Shown here: piece by piece, positions 44,831 to 61,224 of the stretch | Layout: each line of letters begins with the position of its first letter | How positions within the stretch are numbered: position 1 is the stretch's first letter | Assembly (NCBI GenBank): GCA_945862465.1 | Contig: CAMAYO010000002.1 | Location: 1 to 64,000, forward strand | Length of the DNA: 64,000 nucleotides | Source: Pseudorhodobacter antarcticus | GTDB taxonomy: Bacteria; Pseudomonadota; Alphaproteobacteria; Rhodobacterales; Rhodobacteraceae | Direction of reading: 5' to 3' | Program-made: the position numbers and the translations under genes | Notes under the pieces: generated by a model | What the model saw: the letters and a program-made list of their open reading frames with translations, nothing else | What the model was told of the DNA's origin: nothing | The model's database searches: none

Positions 44831-46645
44831 TTAGTTTTGTTGCCACCATACATCCGGCATAAAGCCAAGCCAATCCCCATAGGCCGCAACATAATCTGGG
44901 TGCTTAAGGCTGGCTTTATGGGCCATGTGGCTGACGTTGGAATACCAAAAGGGAATGACATATCGCCCCGAGGTCAGCACGCGGTCAAGCGCTTGAACTG
45001 CCACGACAAATTCCTCACGGCTTTTTGAACTGACCATCGTGGTGATCAACCCATCTACCGCCGGAGAGGCGACCCCCATCCAGTTGCGCGTGCCTTCTTT
45101 GGTCACACCTTCCGACCCCCAATACAGCGTTTGCTCGTTGCCTGGGCTCAGTGACAAGGACCGCGTGTATTGGGTCATATCAAAGTTATAGACCGTGGTG
45201 CGTTCTTTATACTGGGCCGAGTCCACGGTTTGGATCGTGGCCGCAATCCCCAGTTTCTTCAGCGATTCAACATAGATATTGACTGCCGCAATCGTATCCG
45301 ATGCGCCATTGGCCAGCAGGATTTCAAAGGCAAAAGGCACACCTTGGGCATCTTTCAATGCGCCGTCTTGAATGGTCCAGCCTGCCTCTTCGAGCAGTTT
45401 GTTGGCGGCCCGAAGATTGGCGCGGTTGGCTTCTGATCCATCCGACACGGGCTGGGCATAGCCTTCCAACGCACCGGGAAGGAGGCTGTCTTTGTAAGGT
45501 TCCAGCAGCGCTGCAACCTGAGGGCTGGCGGGTTCGGCCATTTGGCCGGACAATTCCGAATTGTCGAAATAGCTTTGAATGCGGGGGTTGGCCCCACCAT
45601 TGATCGTTTGGTTCACCAACTCAAAGTTAAAGGCCAAACTCAACGCTTCACGCACCCGCCAATCGGCAAAGATCGGTTTGCGGGTGTTAAAGACCAACCC
45701 GTCGATGCCCGAGGGGCGCTTGTGGGGAATGTCTTCTTTGACCACATCGCCCGATTGCACCGCGGGAAAATCGTACGTTGTGGCCCATTTGGCCGCATTG
45801 CTTTCGCGGTACATATCAACGTCACCGGCCTTCAGCGCTTCGACAATCACGGTGGGGTCGGCGAAGTAGATGTATTTCAGGGCATCAAAGTTCCACAGCC
45901 CCTTGTTGAACGCCAAATCCGCGCCCCACCAATTGGGATTGCGCTTGTAGGTGATGAAATTCCCCGCCTCGATCTGATCGACGACATAGGGGCCAGATCC
46001 AATCACTGGATCTAGACTTGAGACGGTGAAATCCTTTCCCTCCCATTGCGCCTTCTTAAGGATCGGGCGCAGTCCCAACAGCAGGGGCATTTCGCGGTCA
46101 GGCTCGGTGAAGGTGAACTTGACGGACCTTGGTCCTGTTTGGGCGGCGGTGGCGATTTTCTTCCATGCTGCAGCGTAGCGAGGATTTCCTTGCTCACCCA
46201 AGGTTTGATAGGACCACAAAACATCCTCCACCGTGACGGGCGATCCGTCAGAGAATCGGGCCCCCTCACGCAGGGTGAATTCCACGTAAGAGCGCGCGTC
46301 ATCTGTGTCGACTGATTCGGCCAATAGCCCGTAAAGGGAGAAGGGTTCGTCGTAAGAACGGCCCATAAGTGTCTCAATTGTAAGCGGAGAAATCGATCCG
46401 GGGGCCGAGCCTTTGGTGATGAACGGGTTAAGGGAATCAAAGCTTCCCGGCTCGCCAAACGTGATGGTTCCGCCCTTGGGAGCATCAGGATTGGCTTGGG
46501 GTAGGGACACAAAATCAGGTGGCAGCGCGGGGTCGCCATACATAGCGATGGCGTAACGCGGCTCGGCAGTGGCCATTTGGGCGGTCACGGCAAGGGCCAA
46601 AGCCGCTCCCAAGGTCTGAAGGATTTTGATCGCGCTGACGGGCAT
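44831..46645 (-). CDS. family 5 extracellular solute-binding protein (YejA-like)
   Basis: 604 aa, signal peptide, PALPPDFVSLPQANPDAPKGGTITFGEPGSFDSLNPFI. Confidence 0.9.
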   Translation of the reverse strand: MPVSAIKILQTLGAALALAVTAQMATAEPRYAIAMYGDPALPPDFVSLPQANPDAPKGGTITFGEPGSFDSLNPFITKGSAPGSISPLTIETLMGRSYDEPFSLYGLLAESVDTDDARSYVEFTLREGARFSDGSPVTVEDVLWSYQTLGEQGNPRYAAAWKKIATAAQTGPRSVKFTFTEPDREMPLLLGLRPILKKAQWEGKDFTVSSLDPVIGSGPYVVDQIEAGNFITYKRNPNWWGADLAFNKGLWNFDALKYIYFADPTVIVEALKAGDVDMYRESNAAKWATTYDFPAVQSGDVVKEDIPHKRPSGIDGLVFNTRKPIFADWRVREALSLAFNFELVNQTINGGANPRIQSYFDNSELSGQMAEPASPQVAALLEPYKDSLLPGALEGYAQPVSDGSEANRANLRAANKLLEEAGWTIQDGALKDAQGVPFAFEILLANGASDTIAAVNIYVESLKKLGIAATIQTVDSAQYKERTTVYNFDMTQYTRSLSLSPGNEQTLYWGSEGVTKEGTRNWMGVASPAVDGLITTMVSSKSREEFVVAVQALDRVLTSGRYVIPFWYSNVSHMAHKASLKHPDYVAAYGDWLGFMPDVWWQQN

Positions 46646-46716
46646 GGAAGGGGGTCCTTTGACGGGGCTTTGATCGCAACCCTACGGTGGGTTAAGGCGC
46701 ATTTCAAACCTTTAGC

Positions 46717-46745
46717 TTGAAGCTTGGGGCCAATATGACTATAAA
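46717..46745 (+). promoter_or_regulatory. sigma70-like promoter driving a candidate sRNA
   Basis: TTGAAG-N17-TATAAA. Confidence 0.65.
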
Positions 46746-46751
46746 GTGCTT

Positions 46752-46828
46752 ACTGCTCGATAGGTTTCTTGCCTGTATGAAACCTGCCTCAACGACTTAA
46801 CGCCGGCTTCGTGCCGGCGTTTTTTTTA
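46752..46828 (+). ncRNA. candidate small RNA, about 77 nt
   Basis: promoter at correct distance; hairpin AGGTTTC-N10-GAAACCT; terminator AACGCCGGC-TTCGT-GCCGGCGTT + T-run; no credible ORF. Confidence 0.6.
46799..46828 (+). terminator. intrinsic terminator
   Basis: AACGCCGGC-TTCGT-GCCGGCGTTTTTTTT. Confidence 0.88.
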
Positions 46829-46896
46829 TTCCCCCAAGCCCCGCTTGCCTTTCCCCTCGCAGCTGCAGCATTCTGGCGCAAAGAATGGAGCATCTC

Positions 46897-47670
46897 ATGA
46901 CCCTATCAGGCAAAACCGCTGTGATCACCGGATCCAACTCTGGCATCGGCCTTGGCGTGGCTGAGGCGCTGGCCGCGGCGGGCGCGCATGTGGTGTTGAA
47001 TTCTTTCACCGATAGGCCCGAAGACCACGCCTTGGCCGCCGATCTGGCGCGGCGTTATGGGGTGAGTGCGCGTTACATCGCCGCCGACATGGCCGATGGT
47101 GCTGCGTGCCGTGATTTGATCGTTAAGGCGGGCGCTTGCGATATTCTGGTCAACAATGCGGGCATCCAGCACGTCGCCGCGATTGAAAACTTCCCCCCCG
47201 CCATGTGGGACCGCATCCTTGCGATCAACCTGTCATCCGCCTTTCACACCACAGCCGCAGCGCTACCCGCGATGAAGGCCAAGGGCTGGGGTCGGGTGGT
47301 CAATATCGCCTCGGCTCATGGTCTGACGGCAAGCCCGTTCAAATCGGCCTATATCGCCGCCAAACATGGGATTGTCGGTCTGTCAAAGACCACCGCGCTG
47401 GAAGTGGCGGGCCTAGGCATCACCGCCAATGCCATCTGCCCGGGCTATGTGCTAACCCCCTTGGTCGAAGCGCAGATCCCTGATCAGATGCAAGTGCATG
47501 GGATGGACCGCGACACGGTGATCCGCGAGGTGATGCTGCTGCGCCAACCCTCGCGCCAGTTTGCCACGGTGGAGCAGATCGGCGGGACAACTGTGTATCT
47601 GTGTTCGCCCGCTGCCGATCAGGTGACGGGCACAACGATCAGCGTCGATGGCGGCTGGACCGCGCTTTAA
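46897..47670 (+). CDS. bdhA: 3-hydroxybutyrate dehydrogenase (SDR)
   Basis: GSNSGIGLGVAEALAAAGA, NNAGIQHVAAIENFP, AYIAAKHGIVGLSK, ICPGYVLTPLVEAQI. Confidence 0.9.
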   Translation: MTLSGKTAVITGSNSGIGLGVAEALAAAGAHVVLNSFTDRPEDHALAADLARRYGVSARYIAADMADGAACRDLIVKAGACDILVNNAGIQHVAAIENFPPAMWDRILAINLSSAFHTTAAALPAMKAKGWGRVVNIASAHGLTASPFKSAYIAAKHGIVGLSKTTALEVAGLGITANAICPGYVLTPLVEAQIPDQMQVHGMDRDTVIREVMLLRQPSRQFATVEQIGGTTVYLCSPAADQVTGTTISVDGGWTAL

Positions 47671-60138: not shown

Positions 60139-61224
60139 TCAGCCCAGCCGGATTCGGGGATTAAGGAAGACATAGCCGATGTCAGAGATCAGCTGTGTCA
60201 CAAGCACGAAGATCACGGCCACCACAGAGGCGCCCAACAACATCTCGATGTCGTTGTTGCCGGCGGCGGTGACAAGCATCCAGCCGAAGCCTTTGTAGTT
60301 GAACAGCGTTTCCACGATCACCACGCCATTGAGAAGATAGGGAAACTGCAACATGATCACCGTGAAGGGCGCAATCATCGCATTGCGCAGCGCATGGCGC
60401 AGCACGACTTGGCGGAACCCCACGCCCTTAAGCCGCGCGGTGCGGATATATTGCTGCGTCATCACCTCTGTCATCGAAGCGCGGGTCATGCGGGCAATAT
60501 AGCCCACGCCGTAAAGCGCAATCGTGGCCACCGGCAGGCCAAAATTCCAAAAGGTTATGTTATCCATGGCCGAAGTTGCCGTGCCCATGAACAGTGTCTT
60601 ACTGCCAATCCAACCCCATTCCGCCAACAAGGGCGACAGGCCCGTGGCGGGTGAGGCGAGCAGCACCACCAAAATCACGCCCGACACATATTCTGGTGTG
60701 GCGCTTGTGGCGATGGAAAAGGTCGACAGCACACGGTCGGTGCGCGAGCCTTCACGCATCCCTGCCAAAACGCCGATCAGCAGCGCCACAGGCACCATCA
60801 CCAGCATCACGGCCAACATCAGCCAGCCTGTGGCCGCCATTGATTTGCCCAGAGAAAACAGAACCGTCTTCTTGAAAACGGTCGATACGCCCCAGTTGCC
60901 CTGAAAAACGCCGCAAAACTTCGGTGCCATCGCGGGATCGTCGCGCTGCCCGATGCACTTGCCGCGCGTCACCCCTTTTTCGTCGGTGATCACCCAACCC
61001 GGTGCGGCACCCAGCCATTCGGCATAGCGATAAAACACCGACCCGTTGTGGCCATGCTCTTCCAACCACGACGCCACGGCCGCATCCGTCATGCGGACCG
61101 ACCCTTCTGACCGTGCCAGTTTTTCCAAATTCGGCGGCAGATTGGTGAGAAAGAAAACGACAAAGGTCAACACCAAAGCCGTCACCAGCATCACGCCCAG
61201 ACGCCGGATCACGAATGCGAGCAT
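60139..61224 (-). CDS. ABC transporter permease (DppB-like)
   Basis: YIARMTRASMTEVMTQQYIRTARLKGVGFRQVVLRHALRNAM; GWMLVTAAGNNDIEMLLGA. Confidence 0.94.
   Translation of the reverse strand: MLAFVIRRLGVMLVTALVLTFVVFFLTNLPPNLEKLARSEGSVRMTDAAVASWLEEHGHNGSVFYRYAEWLGAAPGWVITDEKGVTRGKCIGQRDDPAMAPKFCGVFQGNWGVSTVFKKTVLFSLGKSMAATGWLMLAVMLVMVPVALLIGVLAGMREGSRTDRVLSTFSIATSATPEYVSGVILVVLLASPATGLSPLLAEWGWIGSKTLFMGTATSAMDNITFWNFGLPVATIALYGVGYIARMTRASMTEVMTQQYIRTARLKGVGFRQVVLRHALRNAMIAPFTVIMLQFPYLLNGVVIVETLFNYKGFGWMLVTAAGNNDIEMLLGASVVAVIFVLVTQLISDIGYVFLNPRIRLG

Follow-up and report, generated by a model that had tools for sequence, protein, structure and literature searches.

The gap between a yejA-like solute-binding protein gene and bdhA, in the 64-kb stretch of DNA analyzed here (the window), raises a simple question: does it hold a gene in its own right for a small RNA (sRNA), or only the leader and control signals of its neighbors, and if it is a gene, what might its product do? 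The family concerned, the Rhodobacteraceae, is abundant in the ocean and includes laboratory models such as R. sphaeroides. A first-pass annotation had proposed that an intergenic sRNA gene stands here independently, between a promoter and a terminator of its own, and the conservation of this arrangement across homologues bears the proposal out. The gene is real, family-wide and unusually constrained, and its kind, the intergenic sRNA, is one already known.

Anatomy of the locus

The sRNA gene, its elements and its two neighbors are laid out as follows:

44831–46645, minus strand: yejA-like solute-binding protein gene, the divergent neighbor (Pfam SBP_bac_5, E 8e-66)
46717–46722, plus strand: sRNA promoter, −35 box TTGAAG (TTGGAC/TTGGAN in the family consensus; 189 of 210 homologues have TTG at the 17-bp spacing)
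46740–46745, plus strand: −10 box TATAAA, 6 nt before the start (TATAAA in 122 of 210 homologues)
46752–46827, plus strand: sRNA gene, predicted 76-nt transcript (covariance model positions 1–76, 106.2 bits, E 2.0e-22; the conserved block starts at 46752)
46752–46792, plus strand: near-invariant 41-nt core, comprising the single-stranded 5′ tail, the hairpin and the start of the linker (213 distinct loci)
46761–46786, plus strand: hairpin 1, 8 bp, loop TTGCCTGTAT (folding; both arms invariant)
46799–46827, plus strand: intrinsic terminator with a 9-bp stem, the loop TTCGT and eight T (46820–46827); five stem pairs are changed on both sides among 25 homologues
46885–47670, plus strand: bdhA, 3-hydroxybutyrate dehydrogenase, the usual downstream neighbor (NCBIfam TIGR01963 PHB_DH, E 4e-107, above cutoff)

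The promoter, hairpin and terminator of the first-pass annotation were each recovered at their proposed positions. The RNA had been given there as about 77 nt long with a start near 46752; the start holds, the conserved block beginning exactly at this predicted site, whereas the length is more likely 76 nt (46752–46827). In the window the promoter reads TTGAAG, 17 bp, TATAAA, 6 nt and a start A at 46752, and the predicted RNA then opens with a 5′ tail of 9 unpaired nt, followed by a hairpin of 8 bp whose loop has 10 nt (read directly as AGGTTTC-TTGCCTGTAT-GAAACCT at 46762–46785), a linker, the terminator and a long U tail. A 77-nt RNA folds at −26.3 kcal/mol (z = −4.2; 0 of 200 shuffles equally good), most of this stability being contributed by the terminator. 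The first 47 nt without the terminator give only −8.6 kcal/mol and a z of −1.8, with 15 of 200 shuffles equally good, so the fold alone proves little beyond the terminator. By its sequence the locus is an intergenic sRNA gene, having a promoter and a terminator of its own and a conserved non-coding core.

Conservation and coding potential

That the locus is not a product of chance follows from its distribution. Among 61 genomes searched by blastn with a 201-base query, 37 from the Rhodobacteraceae (22 genera) and 24 from other families, 36 gave matches, all of them within the family and none among the 24. A covariance model (R1), built from an alignment of 25 homologues, matches all 246 genomes of the order, every one of which belongs to the Rhodobacteraceae (102 genera), nearly always in single copy. 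Four genomes (G307, G449, G379 and G548) have two R1 matches instead of one. In one deeply sampled genus, 124 of 125 genomes gave the hairpin in a pattern search. In a class-wide sample no R1 match from outside the family exceeds 32 bits, against about 103–107 inside it; those inspected cover the terminator but have no hairpin, or an unrelated one, and are rejected as homologues. At least 118 stretches match among named GTDB contigs, and those listed come from Rhodobacteraceae (Ruegeria pomeroyi, Leisingera, Sulfitobacter, Paracoccus, Defluviimonas and Rhodovulum among them), from Alphaproteobacteria bins and from two Neomegalonema bins. The same model would permit annotation of the sRNA in thousands of genomes at once.

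Across 213 distinct loci there are only two single substitutions in the first 40 nt, position 41 being A, T or C. Pairwise identity averages 99% over the 41-nt core, as against 39% over the promoter spacer and 41% between −60 and −46, while identity to the window copy falls to 45% (median 58%) for the YejA-like protein and to 68% for BdhA. Conservation limited to the terminator, which the first-pass annotation had named as fatal to its proposal, is thus ruled out, since it extends far beyond. Covariation, also suggested there as a check, gave a divided answer: the terminator stem covaries in the 25 homologues, and its T run measures 6–10 nt in all homologues, whereas hairpin 1 has both arms invariant in the 213 loci, with no compensatory change, and because it never varies, covariation neither supports nor refutes it. 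An sRNA present in all sampled members, and nearly letter-perfect among them, should be more basic to the family than its studied stress sRNAs.

A seven-codon ATG reading frame (MKPASTT; 46777–46800, plus strand) starts within the hairpin loop. In 102 of 212 loci this frame (ATG AAA CCT GCC TCA ...) is 7 codons long, in another 42 it has 5, and in the others it mostly reads past the terminator. Its third codon positions are as fixed as the first and second and its stop is not universal, which indicates that the constraint acts on the RNA; an encoded peptide is therefore not supported, and the earlier claim that there is no plausible ORF agrees with the absence of a coding pattern.

Relationship to known small RNAs

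Is this then an sRNA that has already been described? In a scan of Rfam, proposed in the first-pass annotation, no family reaches its cutoff at the locus, so the sRNA is not identical to any that Rfam annotates; a near-invariant sRNA of the Rhodobacteraceae is yet without an Rfam entry. Elsewhere in the window, RF02647 (Ruegeria cis52 sRNA) scores 74.2 bits (cutoff 56) at 60383–60562 on the plus strand; the match lies within an ABC transporter permease-like gene (60139–61224, minus strand), antisense to it, and may reflect coding conservation.

StsR had been singled out as the first comparison, and it was the right one to make. StsR (RSs0827) of R. sphaeroides, 72 nt long (PMC8307010), is likewise a small intergenic sRNA of the Rhodobacteraceae with its own terminator, but its sequence is unrelated to that of the window sRNA and it occupies another locus of the same genome. 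It contains CCGTTCTACCTTCACTGTCC, taken from its Northern probe (PMC11354728), which the window sRNA lacks; the probe sequence has no match in the 64-kb window with up to 3 mismatches allowed. On contig 4 of the R. sphaeroides genome (G090) the exact StsR probe match is at 858073 and the homologue of the window sRNA at 1,443,996–1,444,071 (minus strand), 586 kb from StsR. The probe sequence and the separate loci together rule out identity of the two RNAs. This contig is chromosome 1 of R. sphaeroides 2.4.1 or collinear with it, as SorY starts there at 1,632,645 (Rfam) and its published start site is 1,632,642 (PMC6238624). With so exact a position in R. sphaeroides, the sRNA is directly accessible to deletion, pulse expression and RIL-seq.

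The suhB/MmgR/alphaR8 family (Rfam RF00519) resembles the window sRNA in length, in its two-hairpin layout, in a UUCUUG loop motif and in the ACUU before the terminator. However, the sRNA scores 23.2 bits in the window and 20.5 in R. sphaeroides against a cutoff of 41, and the family model has a CCUCCC-containing linker, whereas the linker here is GCCUCAACGACUU; in four Rhodobacteraceae genomes other places outscore the sRNA locus with this model and none passes the cutoff. Membership is rejected on the score and the linker. MmgR tunes PHB storage and the window sRNA adjoins bdhA, a PHB-cycle gene, a link that is a lead only. SorX (RF02784) and SorY (RF02651) share its size, its hairpin-linker-terminator layout and its family of hosts, but the scores are 22.8 bits against a cutoff of 46.6 for SorX and 17.1 against 111 for SorY, and both carry CCUCCCUGUUGG, which is absent from the window sRNA. 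SorX membership is rejected on its score and this missing motif; SorX itself is cut from an mRNA 3′ end (PMC6238624). Among families known from this bacterial class, suhB/MmgR and SorX score best below their cutoffs, and their weak alignments span the whole length of the sRNA, which is without the CCUCCC element of those families; the other weak Rfam matches are rejected as well.

The sRNA might also have been catalogued under another name in the RNA-seq lists of R. sphaeroides, Paracoccus or Ruegeria, whatever its mechanism, and we put the chances of this at about even. Such lists exist for Ruegeria (PMC4809877) and Paracoccus (PMC5107571), the latter with 167 sRNAs, several of them conserved across the Rhodobacteraceae, and an sRNA gene carried by every member ought to have turned up in sequencing. 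On the other side, it belongs to no Rfam family and is neither StsR nor SorY, and a search of the main texts of papers for pieces of its sequence returned unrelated papers only. The abundant "intergenic 60" of Paracoccus was considered as the same RNA and may be a different one: its listed homologues include Sphingomonadales, and the window sRNA was not found outside the Rhodobacteraceae in the class-wide sample. Uncatalogued in Rfam, the sRNA may nevertheless be listed in published RNA-seq supplements.

Probable function

The explanation that we favor, and consider reasonably probable, is that this is a housekeeping, probably Hfq-dependent sRNA that acts in trans by base pairing and is held under strong purifying selection. 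Its transcription would begin at a sigma-70-type promoter of its own and stop at the terminator described above; a putative Hfq contact would hold its U-rich 3′ end, while the 5′ tail, the loop UUGCCUGUAU or the GCCUCAA linker would pair with several mRNAs near their ribosome-binding sites, giving the sRNA a multi-target regulon in trans. We infer Hfq binding, base pairing and such a regulon from the unpaired 5′ tail, the exposed loop, the linker and the U-rich 3′ end, the U run of 6–10 in all homologues being an indirect basis for the predicted Hfq binding.

Limited seed scans of six genomes with two exact seeds (5′ tail and loop) upstream of ATG, a weak test, gave no recurring gene as a trans target. 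The loop-seed scan took in 130 regions, only about 20 of them at plausible gene starts, and the proteins behind these starts were compared. Closer to home, no conserved pairing site for the sRNA was found in the bdhA start region, and bdhA is rejected as a cis target: the mean duplex energy is below that of most shuffles (1 of 40 as low), but CAGGCAA is present in only 13 of 165 genes and in variable codons. The yejA start region showed no pairing with the sRNA above shuffles in the four usable regions.

An sRNA that does nothing but base-pair would not usually keep both hairpin arms invariant, and the RNA could bind a protein. It has to be asked whether it works mainly in this way, by titration or as a scaffold, with mRNA pairing secondary or absent; the absence of compensatory change in hairpin 1 over 213 loci and the lack of a conserved mRNA seed in the limited scans would both suit such a role. 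We regard this as unlikely, however: the single-stranded 5′ tail and the first part of the linker vary just as little, although a protein that binds the hairpin would not by itself call for this, and the long U run at the 3′ end suits an Hfq sRNA.

Two promoters back to back

The sRNA promoter assumed in the base-pairing explanation looks sigma-70-type (TTGGAC-N17-TATAAN) and not RpoH-dependent. Counted from a −10 set 6 nt ahead of the start, the 210 homologues have mostly TTGGAN at −35 and a TATAAN −10 without the final T (T in only 11), and the 6-nt discriminator is present in 206. A −10 of the TATAAN type agrees with the vegetative promoters reported from R. sphaeroides, whereas RpoH promoters have a C-rich −10. 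The first-pass annotation had read CTTGAA at −35 as a possible sign of heat or oxidative-stress control through RpoH, and a stress sRNA transcribed by RpoHI/RpoHII, like StsR, would account for the CTTG that most homologues have at −35 (TTG follows a C in 171 of 210). This now appears improbable: the −10 is not of the sigma-32 type, the −35 is mostly TTGGAN and not TTGAAA, CTTGAA itself is rare in homologues, and one well-sampled genus often lacks the leading C yet has TTGGAC-N17-TATAAA. Judged from sequence, an RpoHI/RpoHII-dependent promoter like that of StsR is not found, the sigma-70-type −35/−10 being kept in the 210 homologues.

A conserved TCAAAC box upstream of the sRNA belongs to a second promoter, on the opposite strand:

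46702–46707, minus strand: −35 box TTGAAA of the yejA-like gene, back to back with the sRNA −35 (spacing test, 143 loci)
46679–46684, minus strand: −10 box TAGGGT of the yejA-like gene (spacing test, and position read from the sequence)

The box is conserved because it is the −35 of this divergent gene, as the spacing test indicates: minus-strand TTGANN-N17-TANNNT occurs in 127 of 143 loci, and at any other spacing in at most 2 of 143. The assignment further weakens the RpoH-type reading, and the upstream CAAAC...GCTTG, considered as a regulator palindrome, is also better explained as the divergent yejA −35. The yejA-like gene (a family-5 solute-binding protein) is the divergent neighbor in 201 of 208 judgeable loci; loci without it keep the sRNA and, in most cases, a recognizable −35, the TCAAAC box often being lost. 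Two opposite-strand promoters thus lie within 46679–46722, their −35 boxes 9 bp apart in the window, and this arrangement is conserved across the Rhodobacteraceae. At such a distance two polymerases are unlikely to be accommodated at once, and RNA polymerase would presumably exclude itself from one promoter when bound at the other. One could speculate further, tentatively and at somewhat less than even chances, that this is an undescribed and essentially universal hub sRNA of the Rhodobacteraceae, with its first 40 nt frozen over hundreds of genera and with a promoter that adjoins that of the solute-binding protein gene in opposite orientation, each excluding the other; the sRNA would then govern a core regulon of the family or bind one of its core proteins.

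The downstream neighbor bdhA

That the sRNA represents the prematurely terminated part of a bdhA transcript, and so an attenuator or 5′ leader of that gene, is very improbable: although bdhA is the next gene downstream on the same strand in 168 loci, and its start in the window is 57 nt from the end of the terminator, 35 loci that keep the sRNA have no bdhA found downstream, the gap between the two varies from 25 to 486 nt, a TGCARCAT box stands between terminator and bdhA in 72 of the 168 loci, and conserved anti-terminator pairing was not seen. The attenuation that the first-pass annotation had reckoned with is therefore not borne out. With bdhA often absent, its spacing variable and, in many loci, a box of its own upstream of bdhA, the sRNA is a unit in itself, and it persists in loci without bdhA as it does in those without yejA. 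In the window the box reads CGCAGCTGCAGCAT (46858–46871, plus strand) and lies between the sRNA terminator and bdhA. Its likeness is to YGCRNYGCR, the PhaR/AniA motif (PMC12542648), from which it differs in having 2 nt between its halves. TGCARCAT is found 0 times in shuffles of this gap, and in the loci that have it bdhA seems to be under its own control.
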